IMG/VR virus record: IMGVR_UViG_3300042893_000929
Span: 1 to 30,682 of that record
Origin: a virus
Strand: one strand, 5' to 3'
DNA: 30,682 nt
Each line of letters opens with the position of its first letter. Positions within the stretch are counted from its first letter, which is position 1. Position numbers and translations under genes: made by a program. Positions 1-27,000 of the stretch are shown here, in pieces. Below the pieces are notes generated by a model that searched no databases, was not told the origin of the DNA, and worked only from the letters and a program-made list of their open reading frames with translations.

Positions 1-521
1 CCTCAACGGTAACAAGAGCCGCTGATGTTTATATTTCTTCGGCATCTTCAAGAGCAAACGAGACATTAGCAATTCCAAGAACATCCGTTAACCTCAAACC
101 ATATGAAGGAACGGTATTGTTAGAAGGTAAGATTGAGGGTAATATTACTCTTAATCAATATTTGTATGGTCTAGGTGACGGAACAGTTTGGGCATTGATA
201 TCGACGCGTATCCAATCTAATTTTTTATCGGCACTCGTATTTAATGCAACCATTGCGCAGGGATCCGTAGCACTGAAAGATTACACTGGCCAAACACCAG
301 TGTTTAAAACGGCAATGTCATTTTCTAATACAAGTGTTGTTGGTGCTTTGGATGGCGCTGTAATTGGATCATTTAATCTTAATCTTGGTTTACCGCAATA
401 TGGAACAATTACAATTGGCGGTGGATTTGGTTCAGGTGTAAGGAGAGCTTACATAAAGAACTTTGCATACTATCCAGCTAAGCTTTCTAATAACGAACTT
501 ATTTCGATGACTGCATCATGA
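1..521 (+). CDS. LamG-type adhesin or fibre protein, C-terminal part (5' end outside window)
   Basis: The reading frame is open from base 3, so this is the 3' end of a longer gene; the first in-frame start-like codon (TTG at 117) is not a credible start. The first visible residues, STVTRAADVY, match the linker that follows the CBM-like module in its neighbours (STVTKAADIY in the 518 gene), so the missing part very probably carries that module. The rest is a LamG-like beta sandwich of about 160 residues ending in KNFAYYPAKLSNNELISMT, the C-terminal motif shared with the genes at 518, 2522, 7847, 9249 and 10744. Role inferred: a surface-binding protein of the virion, with a fold typical of glycan or protein binding. 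Its stop overlaps the next start as ATGA, suggesting translational coupling. Confidence 0.8.
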   Translation, partial: STVTRAADVYISSASSRANETLAIPRTSVNLKPYEGTVLLEGKIEGNITLNQYLYGLGDGTVWALISTRIQSNFLSALVFNATIAQGSVALKDYTGQTPVFKTAMSFSNTSVVGALDGAVIGSFNLNLGLPQYGTITIGGGFGSGVRRAYIKNFAYYPAKLSNNELISMTAS

Positions 522-2521: not shown

Positions 2522-3802
2522 ATGACATTCAAGCTAAAGAGCGGCTTCGCAGTCGGCTCTATCACTGTCGTCGATTCAAATTCATACTTCCAACAGACGG
2601 AAAGCTCTGCTTCCATTCTGCCGTCCCTTGTTCTTGATTTCACAACAAAGACTCTTGATTCCAGAATAACGTTTTCGCGTTCTTCCAATGGAACGTTCAT
2701 TGCCGCCAATGGTTTAATCCAGAATGCTGTTTCTGGTGCTGCTCGATTTGAGTATGACCCTGATACAAAAGCACCTAAGGGTCTTTTGATGGAAGAGCAG
2801 AGAACTAACCTAATCACATATAGCGCTAATATTGCTGCCTGGTTCGGCCCTGGTGTATCCACACTCGATGCTGCTATTGTAGATCCAACGGGTGCTAACA
2901 ACTCGGTATATTATAACACTACCAGTGAAAGAGTGTTAGATTTCAATGGCGGTGGTGCCAATACCATTGCTTTGAGTTTCTTTGCAAAGAATAGGACTGG
3001 TAGCGGGAGCACTATGACGAGAGTCGAGGTATTCCAGCAAACAGTGGGTACTGTGGTATCGTTGGGATCATATGACTTCAATACAGCGGGTGCTAATCCA
3101 GATGGAACATATGTTAAAAATGTTACAATGGCAACACATCCAAACGGCTGGTATAGGTTTGGATGCTACTTAACTGCAAACAGTAGTCTCGGAAGCGGAA
3201 ACTTTACATCATCCTCTAGATTTGACTTTGAGGGTAGTGCATACTCTAATTATGTTTGGGGTGCTCAAGTAGAGGTTGGATATTTCCCAACAAGCTATAT
3301 CGCAACTAATGGTTCCACGGTCACAAGAGCTCAGGACGATGCAAAGATTAACTACCCCTTACTGATGTCAATTATCAACCCTGAAGAGGGAACAATTGTA
3401 ACCGAGTTTGAATCAAAGAGTCCAATGACGGGAGCGCAGGCTATTGCTTTTAATAGATATCCTATTCCGTTTACTATAAATGGATTTACTTCAACAAACG
3501 TATTGTGGTATGGTTCTGTTGCTGAACTGTATGTTGACAGTACTTACAACAATATTGGAGTTGTTCCATCGGGTGTAAATAAACTAGCAGTTGCAGTGGC
3601 AAATGGCCAATGTGGAACAAGCCTCAACGGTAATGCTGTTGTTTCAAGATCGGGTAGCAGGTTAGTTAAAGATTTATCTTATTTGGGTATCGGTTCAGCT
3701 AATGGATCGGGCATTCTAGTGTTCGGTGGCACGATAAAGAATCTGACCTACTATCCCAAAAGATTATCAAATACCACAATTATAAATTTAACAAGTAGCT
3801 AG
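2522..3802 (+). CDS. Adhesin-like protein: signature block, CBM-like module, LamG-like domain (426 aa)
   Basis: Same family as the 518 gene with only one CBM-like module. The N-terminus MTFKLKSGFAVGSITVVDSN copies that of the 518 protein. The signature covers about residues 36-98 (LVLDF, LDSRITFSRSSNGTF, ARFEYDPDT, GLLMEEQRTNLITYS). The CBM-like module runs to about 270, with PNGWYRFGCYLT, YVWGAQVEVG and TSYIATNGSTVTRAQDD. The LamG-like domain follows (EEGTIVTEFES) and ends in KNLTYYPKRLSNTTIINLT. No signal peptide or membrane segment is seen, as expected for a virion protein. The purine-rich AAGGGACGAGG just before the ATG supports the start. It is probably the first gene of a late transcript from the TATAAATA at 2472. 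The signature resembles modules annotated in databases as phage head-spike or tail-fibre domains; the virion location is not shown by the sequence. Confidence 0.85.
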   Translation: MTFKLKSGFAVGSITVVDSNSYFQQTESSASILPSLVLDFTTKTLDSRITFSRSSNGTFIAANGLIQNAVSGAARFEYDPDTKAPKGLLMEEQRTNLITYSANIAAWFGPGVSTLDAAIVDPTGANNSVYYNTTSERVLDFNGGGANTIALSFFAKNRTGSGSTMTRVEVFQQTVGTVVSLGSYDFNTAGANPDGTYVKNVTMATHPNGWYRFGCYLTANSSLGSGNFTSSSRFDFEGSAYSNYVWGAQVEVGYFPTSYIATNGSTVTRAQDDAKINYPLLMSIINPEEGTIVTEFESKSPMTGAQAIAFNRYPIPFTINGFTSTNVLWYGSVAELYVDSTYNNIGVVPSGVNKLAVAVANGQCGTSLNGNAVVSRSGSRLVKDLSYLGIGSANGSGILVFGGTIKNLTYYPKRLSNTTIINLTSS

Positions 3803-7846: not shown

Positions 7847-9247
7847 ATGGCAATAGTAAAACCGTTCCAGGTTAATAATGGCCTGGAGGTTTCTCTCAAT
7901 GCGAACGTAGGAACTACGGTAACCGCGGCAGACTTTATCGGTAATGCTACTGCGCCTGTAAACCCTCCGTCGCTTGTATTTGACTTTGCAAAGAGCGAGC
8001 AGCTGGATCCTAAAATCTCTTTTGTGAGAAGCTCTAGTGCAACATATACTGCTGCCAACGGTAGAATAGTAACAGCCAACTCCAACGTTCCCAGATTTGA
8101 ATATGCCAACGGTATAAGTCGCGGATTGTTAATTGAAGATCAGCGTACTAACATCTATTGGGATTCGTATGCAACTAACATTAGTGCTGCTTTTAATAAC
8201 CTAGCTGTAGTTGGTAACACAACGGCACCAACAGGAACAAATACAGCTCCTATTGTTAGTAGCCCATCCCCGTTCTTTTCTCTCATATCACCTAACCGAC
8301 CTGCCTATGCTAAGAACACTGTATACACTAGGTCCGTATATGTTAAACCAATATCTGGTAGTAATGCTATATTTTGGCAAGCAATTGTAAACTCATCAGT
8401 TTATTCCGTATCTTCTTTTAATCTTAATAATGGTGTTGCGTCCGTTGATGCAAATGCCAGAGTAAGTATGATAAATGTTGGTGACGGGTGGTGGAGGTGT
8501 ATCCATACACTCAAAACAGATCCATCAGCTGATCTGGCTGGTGATAGTATTTTTATTGGCGGGTATGGTAGTACAGATATCCCAACAACCATGGCTGTGT
8601 GGGGATGGCAAAGTGAGGTGGGAACCGAAGCAACTTCGTTGATTGAGACTCCTCCGCTAAGTTCTGCTACACGTGCAAGTGATGTAGTGACGGTTGGTAT
8701 CAATGCTACATCAACGTGGTATAGCGCGACAACAGGAACGTGCTACGGTGAGTATACTTTGAGAACTCAAGGAGCTGCCGCGTTTCCTGGGGTTGGGTAT
8801 GCTCCGGGATATCCGCAGATGTTTGGCTTTTTTAATATTAGCGATCCTAATAATATGGTTATGGCGCACTACCAAGGTTGGCCTGGTCAGGCAAACAGTC
8901 TCGGTGGATCAACGTCCGGAGCTCTATCTTTTTTAAATTATAATAATCCCACATCAGCAGCTACCGGCAACTATACAAACGTAGACAGCGTTCTAACACC
9001 ACCTATTTTTGTTACGATAGGTAGCACAACAAAAGCGGCATTTAGTTACAGCAGTAACAATATGAACTTTAGCGCTAATGGTACATCTAACACGTTTTCA
9101 TATACAGGTAACAACATTATTGCTACCAACCTATTCTTAATGCAGAGTGCACGTTTTCAGGGCCAACCGGCCGGATACTTTAAGAAGTTTATATACTACC
9201 CATCTAAACTAACAGAAGCTCAGCTTCGATATTTGACGACAACATAA
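7847..9247 (+). CDS. Adhesin-like protein: signature block, CBM-like module, LamG-like domain (466 aa)
   Basis: The N-terminus MAIVKPFQVNNGLEVSLNAN is of the second type in this family (MAxxxxFxVxxGxxxxxxAN), shared with the genes at 9249 and 10744 rather than the MTFK type. The signature spans about 42-103 (SLVFDF, LDPKISFVRSSSATYTAANG, VPRFEYANG, GLLIEDQRTN). The CBM-like module is at about 105-290 (YTRSVYVKP, VGDGWWRC, AVWGWQSEVG, TRASDVVTV). The LamG-like domain ends KKFIYYPSKLTEAQLRYLTTT. The CBM-like part keeps the aromatic GDGWWR motif and WxxQ strand of its homologues. The gene opens a run of three similar proteins joined by an identical stop/start junction. A purine-rich GGAAAGTGAAG upstream supports the start. 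The ligand is unknown. Confidence 0.84.
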   Translation: MAIVKPFQVNNGLEVSLNANVGTTVTAADFIGNATAPVNPPSLVFDFAKSEQLDPKISFVRSSSATYTAANGRIVTANSNVPRFEYANGISRGLLIEDQRTNIYWDSYATNISAAFNNLAVVGNTTAPTGTNTAPIVSSPSPFFSLISPNRPAYAKNTVYTRSVYVKPISGSNAIFWQAIVNSSVYSVSSFNLNNGVASVDANARVSMINVGDGWWRCIHTLKTDPSADLAGDSIFIGGYGSTDIPTTMAVWGWQSEVGTEATSLIETPPLSSATRASDVVTVGINATSTWYSATTGTCYGEYTLRTQGAAAFPGVGYAPGYPQMFGFFNISDPNNMVMAHYQGWPGQANSLGGSTSGALSFLNYNNPTSAATGNYTNVDSVLTPPIFVTIGSTTKAAFSYSSNNMNFSANGTSNTFSYTGNNIIATNLFLMQSARFQGQPAGYFKKFIYYPSKLTEAQLRYLTTT

Positions 9248-9254
9248 TATGGCA
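9242..9254 (+). repeat. Conserved stop/start junction, copy 1 (ACATAATATGGCA)
   Basis: The identical 13 bases occur at the next gene boundary (10737-10749), and ACATAATATGSC again at 12190-12200. It joins the last Thr codon, the TAA stop and the ATG of the following gene. The upstream genes all end in codons for T-x-T. Confidence 0.7.
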
Positions 9255-10742
9255 CTAGAACGCGACTTTATAACACCAGCAGGTGCAGTAATCCAGACGA
9301 CCGCAAACGTTGTCGGTAATACAACGTCTGTTGATATGTTTGGTAATACTCAGAAGTCTTTGTCGTTTCCAATCTTCACACAAAATTTTGGAATAAGTGA
9401 TAGACTTGATTCGCGTTTTGTTTATGTGAGGAATTCAAACGCTACGTACATTGCTGCCAACGGATTAATTGTATACGCCAACAATAACCAGCCCCGATTC
9501 GAATATGATCCTGTTACTTTACAGGGTAAAGGATTATTAATGGAAGAAGGTAGAACCAACATGGTATACGGTTCTTCAAATATGGGTGGACTGAATTGGA
9601 GTTCTTATGATGGTTTGATTGGTCAGACATACGACATCATTACCAACGCTGGCACAGCACCCGACGGATCGAATACAGCAACATTCTTTAGACATACAAC
9701 TGATATTAGTACTTACTATGTGATGTACCCCACGACAGTCACTCCGTTCTTTAATAATGTAACATACACATATTCAGTGTTTGCAAAGGCCAACACAAAC
9801 CCCCAAGAGCCTGTTTTGGTGCTAGCACAGTATGATGCCACAGATAACAACAACTCTGTTTACCTTCAGTTCAATACAGCAGCTAATGGAGCTATCACAA
9901 GTTGGGTCAATTTTGGCACCAGTGCTAATATACACATATCTAGTATCGGTGTTCAACCGTATCCCAATGGATGGAACCGGATATACTATTCGTTTAGGTA
10001 TACGTCGGGTACCCGTTCCTACGTTCAATTCAAACATGAGATCAATGGTTCAGCGCTTTCAGCTAGCACTAATAGAGTAAGAGGGGTATATTGGTGGGGT
10101 GCTCAGTGTGAGCAAGGACCATTTGTTACTTCGTATATACCAACTACGTCTACAAGTACAGCGACGCGTACCGTTGATCTTGCATACATTTCTGGTGCCA
10201 ATACAAACTCAATCAAAAACCCCACTTCTATGACTATTGTCGATACCGTGGCCATTTTGGGTTATCATGGAAATACGGTTATGACGGGTAGCAGTGAGCA
10301 GCGATTTACAGCGGTGTGGGAACTTCGCAATCTCCCTGCCCCGGCATCGTTTGCATATACACTTGGATTCAATTACGGTGCTTTCTTTACTGCGCAAAGT
10401 ACCATACGTAGTTATTTTAATAGTACTACTACGCCGCACGCCGTTGCAAACTACATGGCAATGTTTAATAACAATGAAAATTATTTGGGGTTTCCTCAAA
10501 GTAGTATATCTGTTAACAACTACATCACTGATGCTGCCTATATTACATGCGCAACAACAATGAGGGATTTTAGCTTCTCGTTTGCTGCTAATGGTGTATT
10601 ACATTCGACGGGCAGTTCAAGATTTGCTGGAGACAATAATAACTACTTCCAAATTGGTCCGCTGAATGGATACTTTAAGTCCCTTACAATATATGGAACA
10701 AAACTATCGAATAGCGAAGTCGTTAATATAACGCAGACATAA
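9249..10742 (+). CDS. Adhesin-like protein: signature block, CBM-like module, LamG-like domain (497 aa)
   Basis: N-terminus MALERDFITPAGAVIQTTAN, the second-type leader. The signature at about 51-105 reads LDSRFVYVRNSNATYIAANG, PRFEYDPVT and GLLMEEGRTN. The CBM-like module (about 108-310) includes APDGSNTATFF, YTYSVFAKA, YPNGWNRIYYSF, YWWGAQCEQG and TSYIPTTSTSTATRTVD. The LamG-like domain ends KSLTIYGTKLSNSEVVNITQT. Several motif positions diverge from the consensus (GRTN for QRTN, YGT for YYP) while the framework is intact, as expected for a paralogue under receptor-driven divergence. The start lies one base after the previous stop (ACATAATATGG) with no clear Shine-Dalgarno sequence, so translation probably depends on re-initiation by ribosomes finishing the 7847 gene. 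Confidence 0.83.
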   Translation: MALERDFITPAGAVIQTTANVVGNTTSVDMFGNTQKSLSFPIFTQNFGISDRLDSRFVYVRNSNATYIAANGLIVYANNNQPRFEYDPVTLQGKGLLMEEGRTNMVYGSSNMGGLNWSSYDGLIGQTYDIITNAGTAPDGSNTATFFRHTTDISTYYVMYPTTVTPFFNNVTYTYSVFAKANTNPQEPVLVLAQYDATDNNNSVYLQFNTAANGAITSWVNFGTSANIHISSIGVQPYPNGWNRIYYSFRYTSGTRSYVQFKHEINGSALSASTNRVRGVYWWGAQCEQGPFVTSYIPTTSTSTATRTVDLAYISGANTNSIKNPTSMTIVDTVAILGYHGNTVMTGSSEQRFTAVWELRNLPAPASFAYTLGFNYGAFFTAQSTIRSYFNSTTTPHAVANYMAMFNNNENYLGFPQSSISVNNYITDAAYITCATTMRDFSFSFAANGVLHSTGSSRFAGDNNNYFQIGPLNGYFKSLTIYGTKLSNSEVVNITQT

Positions 10743-10749
10743 TATGGCA
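10737..10749 (+). repeat. Conserved stop/start junction, copy 2 (ACATAATATGGCA)
   Basis: Identical to the junction at 9242-9254. It joins the 9249 and 10744 genes with a single base between TAA and ATG. No clear Shine-Dalgarno sequence precedes it. Confidence 0.7.
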
Positions 10750-12195
10750 ATCAATCGTAACTTTTTAGTCAAGCAGGGTATTCAGATTGGGTTAACAGCC
10801 AATGCTGGTAGTACGTGGACGTCTAATAACTTTATATCAAATAAGAATGATATACTTGCTGTTCCTTCTCTAACGCTGGACTTTACCAAGGGGTACATTG
10901 ATTCGCGTTTACAGACAATCCGCGCAAGTTCAGGAACATATGTTGATATGAATGGCCTTATCCAGGTAGCTGGCAACAACACGCCAAGAATAGAGTATGA
11001 TCCTACTACGGGAGCGTGTAAGGGACTTGTATCTGAAGAAGACAGAACAAACCTAATAGCGTATTCTGATATGGAGGGTGCTGTAAATGGTACACCTCTT
11101 GCAATGGGTTGGCCAGGATTTGCAGATCAACGTCCAGTAATCAGTACAGACTTTTGGATTGGTCCAAACAAACAATCATGTAAGCATACTCGTGGATCAA
11201 ACTCCAACACTGATGATAACTGTGGGTATGCTTCGAATCAAAATATTACTGCAACCAATACGTGGTATACATGGTCGGTGTACATTTATCTTCCTTCCAA
11301 TGTTAACTATTCGTATGTTAACGTATCGATGGAGGGTAATGGTGTATTGAATCCCAATCCCACCGTGTCGGCCGACCTAACAATAAGAGATAGATGGCAA
11401 CGTTTGGTGGGAACATTTGCAGTCACTACTACCGGTGCTTATACCCTACCCGTTATTCGTATGGGACCCGCTGGTGTATTTTGCTATAGCGATTGCTGGC
11501 AATGTGAGGCTGGTGAATATGCTAGCACATGGGTCCCAACAACACAAGTGGCATCGGCAACACGTGCAGCGGAGTTCAATTATGTTTATCCTTTTACACC
11601 CTACCACACACCTGATAACTTTTCGTTGTTCGTAGAAGCAACGCCAAAGTGGACTTCTAATAGTACGTTACAAACACGCACTAATCAATATGGAGCCATT
11701 GGCAGTAATAGACACCTTGTTGGACTTGATTATTTCTTTGGGCCAACAAACATATTTGGAGGATCGCCATATAATGGTTATGCGATTCAATATCCATCTG
11801 CGGCTCTCAACTCAGGTGCGTTATCGTGGGGATCTCGTCAGTATGGTAACACAACGCCCGGTTTTGCAAGCTCGGGACCGGCTCGTGGTATCGGTATAGC
11901 AAACACGGGGTACGACTATGGTACGATGATTGCAAACACATCAATAAAAGTGGCTGCCACTACGAATAGTAGCGCAGGTGCAATAATGAGCAGCGGTAAT
12001 ATATCTACATATGCTAATAGCACCATGACAGGTAGTAATCCTTACTCTAATAATATCTTTACGGATAGGTTGCTTGTGGGTTGGGCACAACAAGGTGGTG
12101 TTCCTTCAACGATATTTGGTGGCAACATTAAGAAGGTTTCATATTTTCCTCGTTCATTAAGTTTGGATGAGTTAACGGCAATAACGGAGACATAA
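10744..12195 (+). CDS. Adhesin-like protein: signature block, CBM-like module, LamG-like domain (483 aa)
   Basis: N-terminus MAINRNFLVKQGIQIGLTAN, second-type leader. The signature at about 43-107 reads SLTLDF, IDSRLQTIRASSGTYVDMNG, PRIEYDPTTGACKGLVSEED and RTNLIAYS. The middle module shows TWYTWSVYIYLP, RWQRLVGTF, CYSDCWQCEAGEYASTW and ATRAAEF; the usual WGAQ strand is here CWQCEAG, with cysteines that are rare elsewhere in the family. The C-terminal LamG-like region is long and rich in N, S and G, ending KKVSYFPRSLSLDELTAITET. It is the last of three tandem paralogues joined by ACATAATATG junctions and is followed directly by the 179-aa structural protein. Binding function is inferred from the architecture. 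Confidence 0.82.
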   Translation: MAINRNFLVKQGIQIGLTANAGSTWTSNNFISNKNDILAVPSLTLDFTKGYIDSRLQTIRASSGTYVDMNGLIQVAGNNTPRIEYDPTTGACKGLVSEEDRTNLIAYSDMEGAVNGTPLAMGWPGFADQRPVISTDFWIGPNKQSCKHTRGSNSNTDDNCGYASNQNITATNTWYTWSVYIYLPSNVNYSYVNVSMEGNGVLNPNPTVSADLTIRDRWQRLVGTFAVTTTGAYTLPVIRMGPAGVFCYSDCWQCEAGEYASTWVPTTQVASATRAAEFNYVYPFTPYHTPDNFSLFVEATPKWTSNSTLQTRTNQYGAIGSNRHLVGLDYFFGPTNIFGGSPYNGYAIQYPSAALNSGALSWGSRQYGNTTPGFASSGPARGIGIANTGYDYGTMIANTSIKVAATTNSSAGAIMSSGNISTYANSTMTGSNPYSNNIFTDRLLVGWAQQGGVPSTIFGGNIKKVSYFPRSLSLDELTAITET

Positions 12196-17319: not shown

Positions 17320-18576
17320 ATGGCAGCATCGTATGGTTTAAGTACTCTTATCAACGATAGTAGCTTAAAGTGTTTTCTTGATGCATCTAATCCTAACAGT
17401 TATGATGCAAGAGAAAACTACTTTAAGTATTCACAAGACTTTTCACAAACAGTACAGTGGACTCCTACCAACGGAACAATTACAGCAAATGCTGCGATAG
17501 CTCCCGACGGTACGTTGACCGCTGCGTCGTTTCTTGAGACTGTTACTGTCGGTGGCCATTATATCGATATCAACGGTGTATCTTCACCAATCACGGGTGT
17601 AGTTGGCCAGACATATACGCGAAGCGTTTATCTAAAGTACAACGGCCGGCAATATGTTGCGTTAAACTTTTACGATAATGCTACGTTGCTTACGGTTGTT
17701 AATTTAATTAACGGTACGATTACAGCTACCGCTGGTGGCGTGACCCCTTCCATCTTTGATGCTGGTAATGGGTGGTACCGGGTATCACTAACAAAGACAG
17801 TGGTATCGACTGCGTTATTTTTTGGTGTTGAGTCATATCAAGTATTTCCGTGGGCGGGTTTATATGCTGGTGATATTACAAAAGGTTATTTTATCTGGGG
17901 ATCTCAGGTTGAGCGTGGATCCATAGCTTCAACATATACCTTGACTGGAGCTACTAATAAAGTAAGAGGTGCGGTGTGGACGGATCTAAGCGGTAATGGT
18001 AAAAATATTACATGGAGCAATACCGTTAATCAATTTGCTGTTTCTAATAATGCCACAAGAGGTATTCCTCATTTTAGAACATTACTTAATCCAGGTGTTG
18101 GGGCAAATTCAAATTCATATGGTATAACAAACACTACCGGATATACCATCTTTATGGGATTTATGGAAGCAGCTATTACAGGTTCATTTGGTTTTATGTT
18201 TGAGGATGTATCAGCAGCTCGTGGAATATACACCCACCTTGTGTATAGTGACGGTAATGTATATTTTGACCAAGGTGGATGCTGTGGGAGTGATACGAGG
18301 GTATCTGCACCATTTTCTGAAACTTATACTAAATTTGGTGTTGCCACGTTTAGGCGTTCTGCTGTCGAACGTAGTATTTTTAAAAACGGCACACAGCTTG
18401 CTCAAACCGTTGTTACGCCAGCCAGTATTAATCTCAGCTCTGCTACCATGAGTATCGGTTTCTATAGTGATTGGCAGGGTATGGTCAATATGTTTATGGT
18501 ATACAATAGAGCACTATCTAACGCAGAGATTGCAAGAGTGGCTGCTGGATTCAAATCTAGGTATGGGGTAACATAA
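17320..18576 (+). CDS. LamG-like adhesin with nested CBM-like module (418 aa)
   Basis: Second-type LamG protein. The fold opens at SLKCFLDASNPNSY (residues 15-28), is interrupted by a CBM-like module (residues 29-219: RENYFKYSQ, APDGTLTAASF, YTRSVYLKY, GNGWYRVSLT, YFIWGSQVERG), and resumes at WTDLSGNGKNITW (220 onward). It ends MVYNRALSNAEIARVAAGFK plus SRYGVT. In the uninterrupted relatives (25613 and 26335) the same two edges are joined by six residues. LamG-like folds commonly bind glycans; the ligand here is unknown. The start follows the previous stop by two bases with GGAGG placed inside the end of the previous gene. The stop overlaps the next start as TAATG. Confidence 0.85.
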   Translation: MAASYGLSTLINDSSLKCFLDASNPNSYDARENYFKYSQDFSQTVQWTPTNGTITANAAIAPDGTLTAASFLETVTVGGHYIDINGVSSPITGVVGQTYTRSVYLKYNGRQYVALNFYDNATLLTVVNLINGTITATAGGVTPSIFDAGNGWYRVSLTKTVVSTALFFGVESYQVFPWAGLYAGDITKGYFIWGSQVERGSIASTYTLTGATNKVRGAVWTDLSGNGKNITWSNTVNQFAVSNNATRGIPHFRTLLNPGVGANSNSYGITNTTGYTIFMGFMEAAITGSFGFMFEDVSAARGIYTHLVYSDGNVYFDQGGCCGSDTRVSAPFSETYTKFGVATFRRSAVERSIFKNGTQLAQTVVTPASINLSSATMSIGFYSDWQGMVNMFMVYNRALSNAEIARVAAGFKSRYGVT

Positions 18577-19760
18577 TGGCAACGACATATGGACCACAAC
18601 CAATTGTAACCAACGGGCTAACGGTGTATGTTGATGCCAGTAATCCAAGAAGTTATAATCCAGTTGAGAACCTCTGGGCAACAAGCGAGACGGCACTTCT
18701 AGGAATTGTTGGAGGAACATCGGCTCTCAATGCTGGTGCTGGTCCGTTCGGTGGCGCGGCATGGACAATTACCGTAACAAACAGCGCCGATCACTATTTG
18801 TTTGATTCTGGTCCTTCATTAAGTCTCTATGATATTGTTACACATAGTGTGTATGTAAAATCTACTACACCTCAGTTTCGACAGATTGGTTTAAGATTCT
18901 GGACTGGAGCTGGTCGAGCATGGACAACTACTAGACAGGCCTTTTTCAATCTGGCCACGGAGACGGTGTTTTCTACTTCCGGAACTTTGCTCGACTCCCG
19001 TATCACAAACATAGGAAACGACTGGTACAGACTATCAATAACAGCAAGAGTAGATCAAGCTGGATTTGCTGCTATATCTGTATATGGTACTGGAGTAGTT
19101 ACCAATGGTCACACATATCAGGTAGCTGGATTTCAAGTAGAAAGAAACTGGGGACCAACAGCCTACACGGCCACATCCGGTACTGCTGTTAGTAAACCAA
19201 CAACATGGACAGATCTTTCTGGAAACGGAAACAATATCACACTTGTTAATTCACCAGCTTTTTATGCTATTGGTAATTCAGGTGCCATGCGGTTCAACGG
19301 AGTAAACCAAGAAGGAAACCTCACATCCCTCAATTACGTTACGGGCCGGTCAACAATTATGGCTGTTTGTAAGTATGAAGGTGGTATACTATCTGCATCG
19401 AATGGAAGGATAATCCAAGGGTATAATAATAACTGGCTGTTAGGTGCGTGGAGTGGAAACGTCGCTAATTACTATGCTGAGGGGTGGGTATCCCCGGTAG
19501 GTAATGGTGGCTTTAATACCAACTGGAACAGTCTTGCAGGAACGGGTGATACTGTAGCCGATTGGTGGGAGTTGTATCGTGATGGTAAGCTGTCAGTTTC
19601 TAATAACGGCGGAACACAAGGAATTAATGGATTGAGACTCAGCAGTGGTGGTGAGCCAGCAACCTGTCTTATAGGAGCCGTACTTGCATACAACAGAGTA
19701 TTATCTGCAGATGAGATCTATCGTAATCATAATGTGCTTAGAGGGAGGTATGGAATATGA
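18576..19760 (+). CDS. LamG-like adhesin with nested CBM-like module (394 aa)
   Basis: Paralogue of the 17320 gene. The first LamG edge is GLTVYVDASNPRSY (14-27). The CBM-like insertion spans 28-210 (VENLWATSE, HSVYVKS, IGNDWYRLSIT, YQVAGFQVERNWGPTAYT). LamG resumes at WTDLSGNGNNITLVNSPAF (211 onward) and ends AVLAYNRVLSADEIYRNHN then LRGRYGI. The strand that reads IWGAQ in relatives is VAGFQ here. Start and stop are both overlaps with neighbours (TAATG and ATGA), so the three genes 17320, 18576 and 19757 form one translationally coupled set. The last codons carry GGGAGGT, an excellent ribosome binding site for the next gene. Ligand unknown. Confidence 0.85.
   Translation: MATTYGPQPIVTNGLTVYVDASNPRSYNPVENLWATSETALLGIVGGTSALNAGAGPFGGAAWTITVTNSADHYLFDSGPSLSLYDIVTHSVYVKSTTPQFRQIGLRFWTGAGRAWTTTRQAFFNLATETVFSTSGTLLDSRITNIGNDWYRLSITARVDQAGFAAISVYGTGVVTNGHTYQVAGFQVERNWGPTAYTATSGTAVSKPTTWTDLSGNGNNITLVNSPAFYAIGNSGAMRFNGVNQEGNLTSLNYVTGRSTIMAVCKYEGGILSASNGRIIQGYNNNWLLGAWSGNVANYYAEGWVSPVGNGGFNTNWNSLAGTGDTVADWWELYRDGKLSVSNNGGTQGINGLRLSSGGEPATCLIGAVLAYNRVLSADEIYRNHNVLRGRYGI
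19743..19749 (+). promoter_or_regulatory. Ribosome binding site embedded in the C-terminal RGRYG codons
   Basis: GGGAGGT lies 7-8 bases before the ATG at 19757 and simultaneously encodes part of the conserved RGRYG end of the 18576 protein. It decides the start of the 19757 gene, which overlaps the stop as ATGA. Confidence 0.75.
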
Positions 19761-20989
19761 GTGTTATTATCAATCACAACCATATTGGTACAGCTAATCT
19801 TGTTGTCAGTTATGATATGCTTAATAGCAATAGTTATAGTCAAGCAGAGAACGGATACACATACAGTCAGGCGTTTACTAATTGGGGTGCTGCTGAGACA
19901 ACAGTAACAGATAATAGTGGTATTGTTACGGCTCCTGATGGTACATCTACTGCATCGCTGCTTATTCCTTCGGTAAATAGCGCTATTCATAGAATAAGTC
20001 AAACTGTAACATGTACGGCTGGTATTACATACACGGTTAGTGTATATGCAAAAGCGTATGGATATAATTTCTTATATGTTAACGTTGGACAATCGTTGTC
20101 TGTTAATTCACCAACGTTTAATTTACAGAATGGTACAATATCAAACCCAGGTAATGCAGTTGTTGGTATTACATCTGCTGGTAATGGATGGTGGAGATGC
20201 ACAGTCACAGCAACATGCATATCTACACAAACGTTCCAACATTTTTATCAAGTTAATACTGTCGGTAACGTGGGTGATCAGGTATACACGGGAAATGGCA
20301 CATCTGGTATTCTTTTATGGGGAGCTCAGCTTGAAAGAGGATCCTCGGTTATGCCATACACAGTTACTACAGCTTCAGTAATAACAAGATCAGCCACAAT
20401 TCCTAATATTGTTACTCCGGGAACATATAACGGTACTGCTAACGTAACTTATTGGGATGCTGGCGGTGGTACAGGAGCAAGGGCTCCAGCGTTCTTTTTT
20501 AACAACCAGACTTCCAATGTAATATCCGCAAATACAATACCGGCTAGTTTCTGGCAAGGATCGTGGACGGCCATAGTGGCAGTCAAAATGAATCAGGTTA
20601 ATAAGGGTTACGATAATGCCATGATTAGTCACGGAGGGCTAGTAGGTAATGGTGGGTTACATCTAGGTGAGAGATATAGTAGATTGTATATGGGGTTCTA
20701 CGGTAATGATGTGGGGGGAGCTACTAATCTTGTTGCAAACCGTTGGTATGTATTTACGTGGTCCTACAATGCATCAACGCTATACAGAACAACTTATATA
20801 GACGGTCTAATTGAAAGCTTTCAATCCACGGCAGCATATATCGGGACAGGAACCAACACAGAAATTGGTAGATATACGTGGGCTACTGAATACGGTATGT
20901 TCGGCCACATAGGAGCCGTAAAATTATTCAGTAAAGCGCTTGGTGCATCAGAGATATACCAAGAAAGCAAGGCTATGCAGAAGCAATAA
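19757..20989 (+). CDS. LamG-like adhesin with CBM-like module, diverged LamG edges (410 aa)
   Basis: Member of the second-type LamG set. After ANLVVSYDMLNSNSY (13-27) comes AENGYTYSQAF and a well-kept CBM-like module: APDGTSTASLLIPS, YTVSVYAKA, FNLQNGTIS, GNGWWRCTVTAT, YTGNGTSGILLWGAQLERG. The usual WTDLSGNGN re-entry of the LamG fold is replaced by a longer YNGTANVTYWDAGGGTGARA segment, so the inner boundary is less clear than in its two upstream neighbours. It ends AVKLFSKALGASEIYQESKA plus MQKQ, lacking the GRYG ending. No embedded ribosome binding site is present there; instead the stop overlaps a late-promoter-like octamer. This suggests it is the last gene of its transcript. Confidence 0.83.
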   Translation: MSVIINHNHIGTANLVVSYDMLNSNSYSQAENGYTYSQAFTNWGAAETTVTDNSGIVTAPDGTSTASLLIPSVNSAIHRISQTVTCTAGITYTVSVYAKAYGYNFLYVNVGQSLSVNSPTFNLQNGTISNPGNAVVGITSAGNGWWRCTVTATCISTQTFQHFYQVNTVGNVGDQVYTGNGTSGILLWGAQLERGSSVMPYTVTTASVITRSATIPNIVTPGTYNGTANVTYWDAGGGTGARAPAFFFNNQTSNVISANTIPASFWQGSWTAIVAVKMNQVNKGYDNAMISHGGLVGNGGLHLGERYSRLYMGFYGNDVGGATNLVANRWYVFTWSYNASTLYRTTYIDGLIESFQSTAAYIGTGTNTEIGRYTWATEYGMFGHIGAVKLFSKALGASEIYQESKAMQKQ

Positions 20990-21017: not shown

Positions 21018-22682
21018 ATGGCAAACATAGATAAGAATATTGTTATTACCCCAAACATCAGCAACACGTCTGAACCAAAGATTGTGTTTACTGGTGGTAA
21101 CAATAATCCAACTACATTACGTGTACTAGATGACGGCACCCTCTCTTTTGAGGGTGGCGCGGGTCAGTTGTTTTCTATTTCTAATACAGCAACTGGTCAG
21201 ATCTTTGCTGTTAATGATATTTCAGGTTATCCACTTTCAGAAGTATATTCAAACGGTTTTGTTTCATTAGCTCGTTCGTATGGTAGAGTTGTTATAGGAA
21301 ATAATACAGCGGCTACGGCCGCCATGACTATTCTTGCAAACAACTCCGTATCCGCTTTGGATATCCAGCATACGTCATCGCCGACATCTGCTGGTTATTT
21401 AAAAACTCCTTCAGGTACTAGATTAGCATACAATAGCACTAATGAGTTGATACTGCTTAATTTAAGTCAGTTGCGTCTTTCAGACGGTGTAGGATTCAAC
21501 TACGATTCGTGGGGCGGTATAAGATACGTTACAGCCAACAATACAATGATTATTGGCGGTCCTGGTGCTCCTGGAATAATTAACAACAATGTCGTATCAG
21601 CCAACCTGATTATGCACAATGCAACGACTGGTAACTTTATGGTTGCCAACTCAAGTGCAACTAATTTGTTTGTTGGTGCAAATGGTAACGTCGGTATTGG
21701 TAACTCAACTCCGGGTTCAGTATTAGTTACTCAGTTTAGCGATAATAATTTTGCCGCCGCTGTAACCGTAAGGAACCCCAATACCGGCGGCCAGGCTCAA
21801 GCCATTCTTGATCTTACATCTGATGGTGGTACATTTAGGTTATTCAGAGCATCGGTAGCCTCAGGGACAGGAGCAGGTCTATATGTAGCAACTGCTGATC
21901 CTTTGGTGTTATATACTAATACGGTTGCTCGTGTATACGTAGCAGCTAATGGCAACGTTGGTATTGGCAATAGTGCACCAAGCTATAAACTTGTTGTGGC
22001 AGGAACAACAAGACTTGATGACGCTGTGTCTTTTGGTGGTACCGGTAACTTTACAATTGATTCGAGCGGTATTGGCGCTGGTCGTTTTATGATAACCGTA
22101 GATCCAACAGCCAACGGTACAAACGGATCTCCTAATTCAAACGTTGGTATTGGTGTAGTTGCTCCCATATACAAACTCCAGGTTAATGGTGCTGTGGGAT
22201 TTGTTAATTCTTCTGCTACACAGGTGTTGTTCGCGGCCAACGGCAATGTTGGTATTGGTAACACAACGCCCGCTAGTAAATTAGTGGTACAAGGAGATGC
22301 GGCGGTCACTGGGTTCTTCACATTAAACGAAGCAACAGAGGTTTTAAACACCAAGACGGGAGCAACGGGCACCGTCGCGCATGATTTAACAACCGGTTCA
22401 ATATTTTATCACTCTTCTATTGCAGCTAACTTTACGTGTAACCTGACAAACGTTCCTACAACTGATTCGCGTACTATTACCGTTACACTGATTCTTATTC
22501 AAGGCGCTACACCGTTTATTCCGAATGCATTCCAGATCGATGGGTCAGCTCAAACTATCAAGTGGTCGGGGGGTGCTGCACCTACAGGTAACGCAAGTAA
22601 GACCGACGTCGTTACCTTTTCATTAATTAGAACTGGGGCCGCGTGGGCTGCCGTTCTGGGACAATTGGGGATGTTTAACTAA
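21018..22682 (+). CDS. Tail-fibre protein with NGNVGIG repeats (554 aa)
   Basis: The N-terminus (MANIDKNIVITPNISNTSEP, then IVFTGGNNNPTTLRVLDDGT) is fibre-like. NGNVGIG-type repeats occur near residues 221, 310, 373 and 406, each followed by a short KLxVxG strand as in the 4121 fibre. The C-terminal domain (about 440-554) includes TGTVAHDLTTGSIFYHSS, TVTLILIQGATPFIPNAFQI and QTIKWSGGAAPTGNASKTDV, a domain I recognise from the ends of marine phage structural proteins. No S74 chaperone follows. Compared with the 1229-aa fibre it is short and lacks the PTNxDLGSMAFQD attachment peptide, so it may attach differently or be a second fibre type. The stop overlaps the next start as TAATG. Probably trimeric, by analogy. 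Confidence 0.85.
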   Translation: MANIDKNIVITPNISNTSEPKIVFTGGNNNPTTLRVLDDGTLSFEGGAGQLFSISNTATGQIFAVNDISGYPLSEVYSNGFVSLARSYGRVVIGNNTAATAAMTILANNSVSALDIQHTSSPTSAGYLKTPSGTRLAYNSTNELILLNLSQLRLSDGVGFNYDSWGGIRYVTANNTMIIGGPGAPGIINNNVVSANLIMHNATTGNFMVANSSATNLFVGANGNVGIGNSTPGSVLVTQFSDNNFAAAVTVRNPNTGGQAQAILDLTSDGGTFRLFRASVASGTGAGLYVATADPLVLYTNTVARVYVAANGNVGIGNSAPSYKLVVAGTTRLDDAVSFGGTGNFTIDSSGIGAGRFMITVDPTANGTNGSPNSNVGIGVVAPIYKLQVNGAVGFVNSSATQVLFAANGNVGIGNTTPASKLVVQGDAAVTGFFTLNEATEVLNTKTGATGTVAHDLTTGSIFYHSSIAANFTCNLTNVPTTDSRTITVTLILIQGATPFIPNAFQIDGSAQTIKWSGGAAPTGNASKTDVVTFSLIRTGAAWAAVLGQLGMFN

Positions 22683-23647
22683 TGCCAATATTCGGAGCTC
22701 TTTCTACATTAAACGTATCCGCTCTGGGGCGCCGCATTATAGCAGTCATCGTGAGTGGTACTCAAAAAGCTATATTTGGATATGGAGGTGTTACTTTTTC
22801 TTCTAGTACATCAGTAACTAATATAGTATCCAACACAGGTGTTGTTGCCAATGATGTTACAGGTGTTGGTACTGTTAGACAGTACCTAGGGGCTGCTGGT
22901 TACGGTGGTGATAAAGCTATATTTGGATATGGTGGTGACCACGCTACAGCAGCATATTCAATGACTAATTTGGTATCAAATGCTGGAGTAGTGGCTACAG
23001 ACACGACAGGTGTTGGTACTCAGAGGTCTTTTGTATCAGCTGCTGGTTACGGTACCGATAAAGCAATATTTGCACACGGCGCCTATGGAGCCACTCGCAC
23101 TGTAATAACTAACCTGGTATCAAATGTGGGAGTAGTGGCTACTGATACAACAGCTTCCGGTTCAACGAGGAGTTTAGGTGCAGCTGCAACATATGGTGGC
23201 GATAAAGCTATAATTGGATATGGTTTCGTTGATAACGTTAGATCAGCGATAACTAACCTGGTATCGAATGTAGGAGTAGTTGCTACGGATACAGCGGGTG
23301 TTGGTACTGCTAGACAAGAATGTGCGGCTGCCGGTTACGGCGGCGACAAAGCTATGTTTGGATATGGATATAATGGATCATCAGATATGTCAATAACTAG
23401 CTTAGTATCAAATACGGGGGTAGTTGCTACAGATACAGCGGGTGTTGGTACTACTAGGTCAACTCTGGCGGCCGCCAGTTACGGTGGCGATAAAGCTATA
23501 TTTGGATATGGTGGTAAGAGTGGTGCATCTCCATTTTGGCAATCGATAACAAACAAAGTATCAAATACAGGGGTAGTTGCTACAGATACAGCGGGTGTTG
23601 GTACTGCTCGATATGGCCCAGCCGCTGCTGGATTTTCTTTGTCGTGA
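22682..23647 (+). CDS. Six-repeat, probably beta-propeller protein (321 aa)
   Basis: After about 26 residues the protein is six tandem repeats of 48-49 residues. Each opens with GDKAIFGYGG, continues TNLVSNTGVVATDTTGVGTA and closes with an RxxxAAAGYG strand. The first repeat begins TQKAIFGYGG and the last ends AAAGFSLS. Regular four-strand units of this length and a repeat count of six fit a kelch-like beta propeller; the fold is inferred. I know similar repeats from uncultured marine phage proteins, with no demonstrated function. It directly follows a tail fibre with a one-base overlap, and propellers are common glycan-binding folds, so it may be a fibre tip or partner. The repeats also show DNA-level similarity, which would allow repeat number to change by recombination. 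Confidence 0.8.
   Translation: MPIFGALSTLNVSALGRRIIAVIVSGTQKAIFGYGGVTFSSSTSVTNIVSNTGVVANDVTGVGTVRQYLGAAGYGGDKAIFGYGGDHATAAYSMTNLVSNAGVVATDTTGVGTQRSFVSAAGYGTDKAIFAHGAYGATRTVITNLVSNVGVVATDTTASGSTRSLGAAATYGGDKAIIGYGFVDNVRSAITNLVSNVGVVATDTAGVGTARQECAAAGYGGDKAMFGYGYNGSSDMSITSLVSNTGVVATDTAGVGTTRSTLAAASYGGDKAIFGYGGKSGASPFWQSITNKVSNTGVVATDTAGVGTARYGPAAAGFSLS
22760..23644 (+). repeat. Six tandem 144-147 bp repeats within the propeller-like gene
   Basis: Unit starts are at about 22760, 22907, 23054, 23198, 23342 and 23486, giving spacings of 147, 147, 144, 144 and 144 bases. The shared core resembles GATAAAGCTATATTTGGATA. Spacing is always a multiple of three, so gain or loss of a unit would keep the frame. 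Confidence 0.85.
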
Positions 23648-24353: not shown

Positions 24354-25613
24354 ATGAGCGTAGCATATAACACATCTATTGTATTGGATAGCACACTGGC
24401 GTTGTGTTTGGATGCGGCTAACCCTAAGAGTTATGACTCTCGAGAAAACCTATTACTGTTTAGCGAGCAAGCTAACAACGCTAACTGGGGCAAGGGTGAT
24501 ATAACAGTATCTGCGGATGTATTAGCATCACCCCTAGGAACCGGAACAGCAGATAAGTTGGTTGAATCAACAGCAGCTGGTGCCTTTCATTATCGTAATC
24601 AAGGCGTCACAAAACCAGCAGCCGCGACGACGTACACCTATTCATTATATGTTAAAAATGCCGGTCGCGGTGCAGTTGGACTTAGAATTGATAGTAGTGG
24701 TAACGGAGCTGTTGTGACGTATAACCTAACAACAGGTGCTCAAATATTAGTACCTGGAACATATGGTACATTTACAAATGCTAGCAGCACGATAACAAAC
24801 GTAGGTGATGGGTGGTGGCGTATATCGTTAACAGTAACATCAGATACAGCAACATCAATTTCTGTACAGGAGTATTTGTACAGCTTAGTAGCCGGTAGTA
24901 CTGTGTATACAGGCGATGGAACATCTGGAGTATATGTTTGGGGAGGGCAGTTTGAACGAGGCTCTTCTGCCACTGCTTACGCTATCACCACTGCAACAAA
25001 CATAACAAGGTCGACATCGTGGATTGATATGATTGGTGGCGGATCTTCTGTCGCTACCAACGGTCCTCAATTCAGTAGTAATAATGGTGGCTATTTTAAT
25101 ATGGCTGCCGCGTCCTCGCAGTATTTTCAGCATCCTGTTTATAGTGCACTTAATATTACAAACAACCTTACATTAGAAGCATGGGTATATCCAACTACGT
25201 GGAATAGCATTGGTGGTATACTGACATATGGTACTGATGCTGCTGAACAATATGCATTATGGACATCGAGTGGTAGCCAGTTTGTATTCAGCAGTAACTG
25301 GCCAGGAACGTGGTATCAACTTTACAATGGATCTACTCTTAGTGCGGGAAGCTGGTATCATGTGGCTGTTACATTTGCTAGCGGTGCAGCAATAATGTAT
25401 ATCAACGGTGTGTTTGCAAGCAGTACGGCTACATTTGGAATAACTACATTGCCGGCCGTTGCTAGTGCCTATCTAACAATTGGTAACAACCACCCTGGCG
25501 GTGATGAAATGTTAAATGGTAGAGTCGGACTTGCTAGAGTATACAGTAGGGTACTAACACTAGCTGAGATTAAGCAAAACTTTAACGCATATCGCGGAAG
25601 GTATGGAGTCTAA
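24354..25613 (+). CDS. LamG-like adhesin with nested CBM-like module (419 aa)
   Basis: The clearest case of nesting. The LamG edge LALCLDAANPKSY (15-27) is followed by a CBM-like insertion at 28-222 (RENLLLFSEQ, YTYSLYVKN, VGDGWWRISLTVTS, YTGDGTSGVYVWGGQFERG). LamG resumes at WIDMIGGGSSVATNGPQFSS (223 onward), continues LTLEAWVYPTTW, WYHVAVTFASGAAIMYINGV, and ends YSRVLTLAEIKQNFNAYRG then RYGV. The next gene has the same outer sequence but no insertion. The motifs LEAWVYP, WYHVAVTF and YINGV are classic LamG strands, so the fold assignment is strong; ligand unknown. The stop overlaps the next start (TAATG), and GGAAGG and GGAG in the last codons can serve the next gene. Confidence 0.88.
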   Translation: MSVAYNTSIVLDSTLALCLDAANPKSYDSRENLLLFSEQANNANWGKGDITVSADVLASPLGTGTADKLVESTAAGAFHYRNQGVTKPAAATTYTYSLYVKNAGRGAVGLRIDSSGNGAVVTYNLTTGAQILVPGTYGTFTNASSTITNVGDGWWRISLTVTSDTATSISVQEYLYSLVAGSTVYTGDGTSGVYVWGGQFERGSSATAYAITTATNITRSTSWIDMIGGGSSVATNGPQFSSNNGGYFNMAAASSQYFQHPVYSALNITNNLTLEAWVYPTTWNSIGGILTYGTDAAEQYALWTSSGSQFVFSSNWPGTWYQLYNGSTLSAGSWYHVAVTFASGAAIMYINGVFASSTATFGITTLPAVASAYLTIGNNHPGGDEMLNGRVGLARVYSRVLTLAEIKQNFNAYRGRYGV

Positions 25614-26338
25614 TGTCACTCGCTCACTCTCCCTCGATCGTAACTAGTGGATTAGTATTATATTTGGATGCGGCCAACTCTAAAAGTTATCCCGGTTCCG
25701 GTACATCGTGGTTAGACCTCAGCGGAACAGGCAATCATGGTACTCTAACAAATGGACCAACATTTAGTAGTAATAATAATGGGTCTATTGTTTTTGATGG
25801 CACCAATGATTCGGTCAATGGAACTATTAGTGGTTCTATTTTTTCTGGAAACTTTACGCAATCGGCTTGGATTTACAAACTTAATGCTAATACGGCTTGG
25901 CAGGGTGTCTTTACCAACTCATCTCCAGCAACCAACTTTACATACTTAATGACTTTTGGTAATGGCTCCGGAGTTGCGCCTTTTAATTCTGTTGGAGTAA
26001 ATCAAGTCGGTATATCGGAGTCTGGTGTGTTTGTGGATATTGGAACCCATATCAATAGATGGTTGTATATAACAATTACTAAATCTGGAAGTACTTTAAA
26101 CATATACTGTTTTAAAGACGGTTCGCTATTGCAAAATTCTGGAACCATATCTTGGAATAGTGGAAACTTTGCAACTACTAATAACTATCAAGTAGGAAGA
26201 CATTGGGCAGCAGATTTTAGTACTGGCCATTTGCCTCTTCAAGGAAACATATCACAGGTATCGGTTTACAGTAGGGTATTATCTGCGGCAGAAATCCTAC
26301 AGAACTTCAATGCAATGAGGGGAAGGTTTAACGTATGA
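25613..26338 (+). CDS. LamG-like protein, uninterrupted domain (241 aa)
   Basis: A single LamG-like domain without a CBM-like module. GLVLYLDAANSKSY (13-26) is joined by PGSGTS to WLDLSGTGNHGTLTNGPTF (33 onward). Then come VFDGTNDSVNG, FTQSAWIY, YITITKSGSTLNIYCFKDGS and the C-terminal SVYSRVLSAAEILQNFNAMR plus GRFNV. Strand order matches bacterial and phage LamG (concanavalin A-like) domains. Its N-terminal turn shares a 16-base identical stretch with the next gene. It overlaps both neighbours (TAATG upstream, ATGA downstream). The last codons hold GAGGGGAAGG, a strong ribosome binding site for the 26335 gene. Probably a small surface-decorating lectin-like protein; ligand unknown. Confidence 0.87.
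   Translation: MSLAHSPSIVTSGLVLYLDAANSKSYPGSGTSWLDLSGTGNHGTLTNGPTFSSNNNGSIVFDGTNDSVNGTISGSIFSGNFTQSAWIYKLNANTAWQGVFTNSSPATNFTYLMTFGNGSGVAPFNSVGVNQVGISESGVFVDIGTHINRWLYITITKSGSTLNIYCFKDGSLLQNSGTISWNSGNFATTNNYQVGRHWAADFSTGHLPLQGNISQVSVYSRVLSAAEILQNFNAMRGRFNV
25689..25704 (+). repeat. 16-base identical repeat at the LamG insertion point, copy 1
   Basis: ATCCCGGTTCCGGTAC is identical at 26411-26426 in the neighbouring gene, inside a near-identical 30-base stretch. It encodes the SYPGSGT turn that replaces the CBM-like insertion seen in the 24354 gene. Confidence 0.8.
26317..26326 (+). promoter_or_regulatory. Ribosome binding site embedded in C-terminal codons
   Basis: GAGGGGAAGG ends eight bases before the ATG at 26335 and encodes the RGR of the MRGRFNV end of the 25613 protein. 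It supports the 26335 start, which overlaps the upstream stop. Confidence 0.75.
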
Positions 26339-27000
26339 GTGTAAATGCAGGACCAGATACAATTGAAAGTGGGTTGGTATTTACTTTAGATGCGGCTAAT
26401 TTAAAAAGCTATCCCGGTTCCGGTACAACGTGGACGAGTTTAATTGGTAGTAGCACAGCAACATTAACAAATAGTCCGGTATACTCTGCTAATCAACAAG
26501 GTTACTTTGCGTTTACAAGATCTTCAGCACAATCAGCGACTATATCTTCTACGGCGGGATTTGTGTATGGAGCCAACCCACGAACAATATCGTGTTGGAT
26601 GTATGTCAACTCGATTACTAATTCGCAATATCATTGGGGATGGTCCTATGGGACTCCTGGTGTTGGATTAGCTATGTTCCTCGGTACTATTAACAGTACG
26701 TTTTACTTTGGAGGATATGCAAATGATATTACGGCATCTGGTGTTCCTCTGGCTACGTGGTTTAATATAACCGGAACGTATGATGGCACCACCGCAATAC
26801 TATACGTTAATGGTGTTGAATTGAACAGAGGAACAAAGACGTGGAATACAACTCAAAGTGGGGGATTTGTAGGCTGCCAAGTAAGCGGCGCCGAGTTTCA
26901 TGATGGTAGAGTGTCGAATGCTAGTCTGTACAATAGAGTTCTATCTATTAATGAAATTAAGCAAAACTTTAATGCTTTGCGTGGTCGATTTGGTGTCTAA
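26335..27000 (+). CDS. LamG-like protein, uninterrupted domain (221 aa)
   Basis: Smallest LamG protein in the window. GLVFTLDAANLKSY (14-27), the PGSGTT turn, then WTSLIGSSTATLTNSPVYSA. Further LamG strands are RTISCWMYVNS, WFNITGTYDGTTAILYVNGV and a C-terminal SLYNRVLSINEIKQNFNALR plus GRFGV. The motif WFNITGTYDGTTAILYVNG is a textbook LamG hairpin. It is paralogous to the 25613 gene and to the outer part of the 24354 protein. It begins with an ATGA overlap and a strong embedded ribosome binding site. It is the last adhesin gene before the small proteins and the neck cluster. Probably a lectin-like virion protein. Confidence 0.87.
   Translation: MSVNAGPDTIESGLVFTLDAANLKSYPGSGTTWTSLIGSSTATLTNSPVYSANQQGYFAFTRSSAQSATISSTAGFVYGANPRTISCWMYVNSITNSQYHWGWSYGTPGVGLAMFLGTINSTFYFGGYANDITASGVPLATWFNITGTYDGTTAILYVNGVELNRGTKTWNTTQSGGFVGCQVSGAEFHDGRVSNASLYNRVLSINEIKQNFNALRGRFGV
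26411..26426 (+). repeat. 16-base identical repeat at the LamG insertion point, copy 2
   Basis: Second copy of ATCCCGGTTCCGGTAC (first at 25689-25704). The two genes are less similar on either side of it. Confidence 0.8.

Follow-up and report, generated by a model that had tools for sequence, protein, structure and literature searches.

Virion proteins with a whole CBM built into one of their loops or arms are known from the lactococcal 936 phages and their relatives, where evolved Dit, major tail (MTP) and neck proteins carry such an insertion in some relatives only; binding has been demonstrated for some of the modules (PMC6669499, PMC8540738). These evolved Dit systems belong to siphophages of Gram-positive hosts. 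A further described adhesion protein is Rcc01080 (GhsB), the head spike fibre of RcGTA, whose fibres enable attachment of RcGTA to the R. capsulatus capsule (PMC7296036). Here we analysed a locus of a bacterial virus in which tandem LamG proteins either carry or lack a whole module at one point of the fold. The window, that is, the whole stretch of DNA that was analysed, is a 30,682-base IMG/VR fragment. The explanation favoured as a whole, with a probability of roughly 0.8, is a port nested in the LamG fold that accepts several modules, is subject to recombinational swapping and belongs to putative glycan-binding virion adhesins.

Layout of the window proteins and identity of the module

On the best explanation, each protein comprises one LamG (concanavalin-A-like) domain, with the loop past the first beta strand acting as a docking port. 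The port holds a GhsB-type module in the proteins at 24354, 17320, 18576 and 19757 and the short linker PGSGT[ST] in those at 25613 and 26335. The relevant features are as follows.

518-2476, 2522-3802, 7847-9247, 9249-10742, 10744-12195: five window proteins with a common N-terminal motif
17320..17403, + strand: N-terminal edge of nested LamG protein 17320
17404..17976, + strand: inserted module of 17320, residues 29-219
17977..18573, + strand: LamG core of 17320, Laminin_G_3 above cut-off
18576..18656, + strand: N-terminal edge of nested LamG protein 18576
18657..19205, + strand: inserted module of 18576, residues 28-210
19206..19757, + strand: LamG core of 18576 (88 bits with the core HMM, below the Pfam cut-off)
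19757..19834, + strand: N-terminal edge of nested protein 19757 (boundary approximate)
19835..20395, + strand: inserted module of 19757, residues 27-213 (boundary approximate)
20396..20986, + strand: diverged LamG core of 19757, sharing 42.5% identity with that of L102:1322-2587
24354..24434, + strand: N-terminal edge of nested LamG protein 24354, residues 1-27, LamG strand 1 at 15-20
24435..25019, + strand: inserted module of 24354, residues 28-222, related to Rcc01080 and to the E217 gp45 / Pa193 gp46 module
25020..25610, + strand: LamG core of 24354, resuming at WIDMIGGG (residue 223 on)
25613..26338, + strand: intact LamG protein, empty port PGSGTS
26335..27000, + strand: intact LamG protein, empty port PGSGTT

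The layout given by the first-pass annotation was recovered exactly from the sequence. In the open reading frame at 24354-25613, LDAANPKSY and WIDMIGGG are separated by 195 codons (24435-25019), the same edges are linked by PGSGTS and PGSGTT in 25613 and 26335, and the insertions of 17320 (residues 29-219) and 18576 (28-210) occupy the same place. A fourth nested protein of the same layout, 19757-20989, was missing from its list. Laminin_G_3 (PF13385) matched 24354 with 90.7 bits against a cut-off of 27.6, the matched part being residues 254-407 only, and was also above cut-off for 25613, 26335 and 17320. In the genome search 18576 stayed below it at 19.6 bits, and 19757 had no Pfam match.

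The closest sequence relative of the 24354 insert was Rcc01080 (phmmer E 2e-21, residues 3-193 aligned to chain residues 85-271), followed by the tail fibre protein gp17 of 9occ (E 2e-7) and the baseplate proteins of Pa193 and E217 (E 1e-4 and 4e-4). In RcapMu, Azospirillum Cd, phAPEC8 and other phages, the tblastn match spanned little beyond the module. None of the window inserts matched a Pfam CBM up to E=10, and Pfam gave no name for them. The label CBM-like used by the first-pass annotation is a guess at the level of the fold, and the best relatives are phage spike, fibre and baseplate modules. The inserts of 24354, 17320, 18576 and 19757 are best explained as a whole beta-sandwich of the RcGTA head-spike (Rcc01080/GhsB) type.

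Downstream genes in the window are T4-like and belong to the neck and tail, encoding a head-tail adaptor, a head closure protein and a tail sheath stabiliser; the neck protein was closest to that of Stenotrophomonas phage DLP_6 (66% identity), followed by Sinorhizobium and Caulobacter T4-like phages. Family matches of the window LamG proteins in Pfam and PHROG were restricted to LamG and tail or virion-structural families, the PHROG families being named tail or virion structural proteins. Going by this annotation, a virion role is likely. The tandem LamG genes (25613-27000 and related ones) abut or overlap by a few bases, and their near-identical 3' ends (QNFNAxRGRFGx) are possible recombination anchors. 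The window also encodes a 321-aa protein (22682-23647) with about six repeats of AAxYGGDKAIFGYGG...TNLVSNxGVVATDTxGVGT, for which neither Pfam nor PHROG gave a significant match (E below 0.01).

Like the RcGTA head-spike fibres, the nested module of such a virion adhesin would add a second glycan-binding surface beside LamG, and by this analogy the LamG face and the module most likely both contact surface glycans. The main alternative, conceivable if rather unlikely, is that the module binds no glycan and serves instead as a spacer or folding element in the structure, altering how far the adhesin reaches or the geometry of its oligomer. Such a role would agree with the related modules of E217 and Pa193, which form part of baseplate triplex proteins described as structural (PMC10329688, PMC11042391), and unrelated modules at the port would fit a site that tolerates anything. 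However, the closest relative by sequence is a fibre that contacts the receptor and is required for attachment to the capsule, and a structurally required spacer is not expected to switch on and off on near-identical cores.

Position of the module in the LamG fold

Structure models were used to locate the module relative to the LamG domain. The AlphaFold2 model of 24354, built from an alignment with 21 proteins of the same layout, reached a mean pLDDT of 81.1 and a pTM of 0.66, which leaves uncertain how the two bodies are placed with respect to each other; the strand at residues 15-20 lay in a block of pLDDT ~86. An intact relative with an 86% identical core (L001:831-1517) served as the control (pLDDT 88.5, pTM 0.89). 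Among solved structures, the best single-domain match of the 24354 model outside the insert was AbnA domain 4 (5hon_A), with 193 of 206 residues aligned over the range 10..411 (Z 22.3). The intact model matched the same domain over 10..221 (195 residues, Z 22.9). The C-terminal ends of the two matches differ by 190 residues (411-190=221), which is the exact offset between the nested and intact cores, and strand 1 was located at 15-20 in the nested model and at 14-19 in the intact relative. Since residues 222-411 number only 190 and the match sets in at model residue 10, level with the beginning of the solved domain, strand 1 precedes the insert. The structural alignment to 5hon_A showed a complete jelly roll in the LamG part of 24354, first strand included, with strand pairing read from alignments and secondary structure rather than from contacts. 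The insert on its own (model residues 29..220) matched residues 200-395 of Pa193 gp46 with a Z of 23.1 and E217 gp45 with a Z of 19.7.

The claim of the first-pass annotation that the module interrupts the LamG fold was borne out in these models, where the alternative of a free-standing CBM ahead of a complete LamG domain of its own was looked for and not found. The models support a module nested inside LamG rather than one placed ahead of a complete LamG. We regard it as improbable that the proteins are strung together from a 27-residue assembly or signal peptide, a free module and an independent LamG domain that lacks or replaces strand 1. The strong conservation of the N-terminal edge in all members would suit an assembly peptide, and the Pfam Laminin_G_3 model begins only past this edge, but in the nested and the intact model alike the first strand of AbnA domain 4 is matched only with the edge stretch included, and in hundreds of intact relatives the LDAAN strand runs straight into the core.

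Another group of window proteins may have a comparable build. The proteins at 518, 2522, 7847, 9249 and 10744 share a strand-like N-terminal motif (PSLxLDF...LDSRITFxRSS...RFEYDP...GLLIEEQRTN). The region in the place of the module is GhsB-like by sequence in 518, 7847 and 9249 and matches the PHROG 5939 tail profile in all five. Their C-terminal half weakly matched the LamG core (hhalign probability 81%), and the LamG core HMM gave E values of ~1e-6 to 1e-5 in four of the five in a search of these five sequences. They may represent a second, diverged nested class.

One port takes several unrelated modules

To survey the spacing between the two parts of the domain, one HMM for the N-terminal edge and another for the core were run on fetched public loci. 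In the enlarged set, 383 non-redundant LamG domains had an edge-core spacing of <=25 aa and 59 had one of >=100 aa, with only seven in between; the spacing is bimodal, far beyond chance. Tandem two-LamG proteins that mimic nesting by spacing (L153, L084, L020:5513, L132:30 and others) were set aside. After removal of gaps possibly holding another LamG, 50 nested proteins on 39 contigs remained with 13 insert clusters, a count of 50 that is approximate because the tandem filter may have dropped true cases (L107:1060, L114:3657, L009:3233). The ~13 clusters at this one port were unlinked to each other, and the largest, with 28 members, holds the window modules. No gap of >60 aa was found elsewhere in the core, although a core interrupted at another point could fall below the HMM threshold.

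Named modules other than the GhsB-like one were present in the port. A Gly_rich_2 (PF21722) insert occupied residues 27-263 of L107:2142-3605, and CBM_4_9 was above cut-off in the nested insert of L114:3657-5351 (residues 38-156), a protein dropped by the tandem filter. Several further port inserts had no name. The port thus takes several unrelated modules and is not specific to one CBM. The order edge, module, core also made up the final domain in virion structural proteins from the cultured cyanophages Syn1 (YP_004324583.1) and S-RIM32 (YP_009301713.1). A single-protein scan of genome contigs returned mostly intact LamG proteins, in bacteria and archaea, and none with a GhsB-like insert. An assembly artefact was ruled out by the four window genes, the cultured cyanophages, the dozens of contigs and the presence of an intact 24354 homologue in six contigs.

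Recent switching of the module state was observed on near-identical cores. The core of 24354, which carries the module, was 86.4% identical to that of the intact L001, and the corresponding value was 91.7% for L237 (module) and L241 (intact) and 85.2% for L255 (Gly-rich-cluster insert) and L030 (intact). Two further pairs differing in module state, L102 with L094 and L112 with L083, had cores 85.6% and 80.9% identical. Different modules were present in L103 (GhsB-like) and L107 (Gly_rich_2), whose cores were 80.0% identical. At the DNA level, positions 25018-25602 shared 89.4% identity with an intact LamG gene (L001-L006), against 67-75% in the other matched stretches of the two loci. On a FastTree phylogeny of 260 cores, 42 of them nested, the nested state needed 34 changes (shuffled mean 39.2), at least 15 of which were forced by strongly supported branches. 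These natural pairs with and without a module, together with 34 state changes for 42 nested rows, uphold the earlier description of a repeatedly used insertion point. That nested and intact LamG proteins are instead two ancient lineages without repeated exchange is highly improbable, despite the slight clustering of nested rows on the tree, given the several 80-92% identical core pairs that differ in state, the strongly supported changes, and six separate contigs with the intact 24354 homologue, which make chimeric pairs unlikely.

Similarity of the inserts was unrelated to that of the cores (Mantel r=0.08, p=0.24). Identity between modules reached 64% where the cores shared only 35% (L158, L159), and it was 60% where they shared only 20% (L107:1060, L113:1939). 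The N-terminal edge was correlated with the core (Mantel r=0.57, p=0.0002; 0.75 without one subgroup), a correlation that could come partly from differing rates.

A LamG protein encoded in an uncultured bacterial bin (L190:2737-3429) has a Bacteroidota-like N-terminus (MKHKIIILLFVLTCSLLSMAQVGIGTATPN...) and a core 81-85% identical to the phage cores of L103 and L107. Either the gene moved recently between phage and bacterium, or the contig is chimeric.

The gene ends suggest a route for the exchange. In the four closest pairs the N-terminal edge was only 35-67% identical, like random pairs (mean 46%), though the cores were 80-86% identical. Because the edge is as different as in random pairs, replacement of a 5' block comprising edge and module is favoured over clean insertion. 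Paralogous genes within one genome resembled each other most towards both ends and varied in between. For residues in common, third-position identity was 0.563 within genomes and 0.476 between genomes at the gene ends, compared with 0.480 and 0.482 in the gene middle, giving an ends-minus-middle difference of 0.09 (95% CI 0.064-0.116, bootstrap over 83 contigs). Codon usage alone would raise the identity at the ends and in the middle alike. The ends could also have been homogenised by selection for assembly with a common partner, but selection on protein sequence should not lift third-position identity at shared residues. Junction-exact DNA breakpoints were rejected as proof of recombination since the insert itself starts at the junction, which makes the argument partly circular; the third-position test was used instead.

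The simplest reading of these sequence patterns would be that tandem paralogues recombine, or undergo gene conversion, by way of their conserved ends, the port region being one of the two. The N-terminal edge with the TW.DLSG..GTL junction would provide the anchor on the 5' side and the RGRFGV end that on the 3' side. Recombination between tandem paralogues, helped by the homogenised ends, would swap 5' blocks and cores independently, and exchange at the port probably allows the virus to change its binding targets. A more tentative extension, which we consider somewhat doubtful, is that LamG arrays form a general cassette system for varying phage adhesins, with gene ends that recombination inside each genome keeps similar, a hypervariable lectin core between them, and a port where whole modules of unrelated families can be loaded, exchanged or taken out while the fold stays unbroken.

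Comparison with known systems

Insertion of modules into phage adhesion proteins is already known, and nested LamG proteins exist in public records without description. No description of the LamG port arrangement was found in the literature searched, which covered few subscription journals. The host domain of the evolved Dit systems is the Dit belt or arm or the major tail protein, whereas here it is LamG, and the likeness is one of principle only. An evolved Dit is defined by a belt domain that builds a hexameric ring and by a CBM located in its arm or galectin part. In the accessible parts of the Dit reports, no tandem paralogue array sharing one port for unrelated modules is described. Rcc01080 (PDB 6tb9) is a homologue of the inserted module over 190 residues at E 2e-21; unlike in the window proteins, its module is preceded by an N-terminal part of ~84 residues and is not matched to a LamG, and in its cryo-EM structure only residues 2-10 are at high resolution, the rest being modelled. 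In E217 gp45 and Pa193 gp46 (8env_K, 9b45), residues 200-395 share the fold of the insert (Z 19.7-23.1, ~21-22% identity), but these are baseplate wedge proteins with a structural role and no LamG (PMC10329688, PMC11042391). AbnA domain 4 (5hon) has the fold of the 24354 LamG, strand 1 included, but is continuous, without a nested module; it is an appendage of a bacterial arabinanase and was solved with an arabino-oligosaccharide. The virion structural proteins of Syn1 and S-RIM32 and PHROG 8510 have the same nested order of edge, module and core as the window proteins, although in the two cyanophages the nested unit ends a protein of ~1,360 residues whose annotation is virion structural protein only.

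Compared with these systems, what is new is a residue-exact, multi-family docking port in the LamG fold with natural matched pairs. It represents a precise graft site, already tried out in nature, in a lectin fold that is very common. Near-identical cores that are empty or carry a GhsB-like or a Gly-rich insert make module function testable in matched pairs, and the arrangement points to a concrete way in which recombination could diversify the adhesins of large phages.
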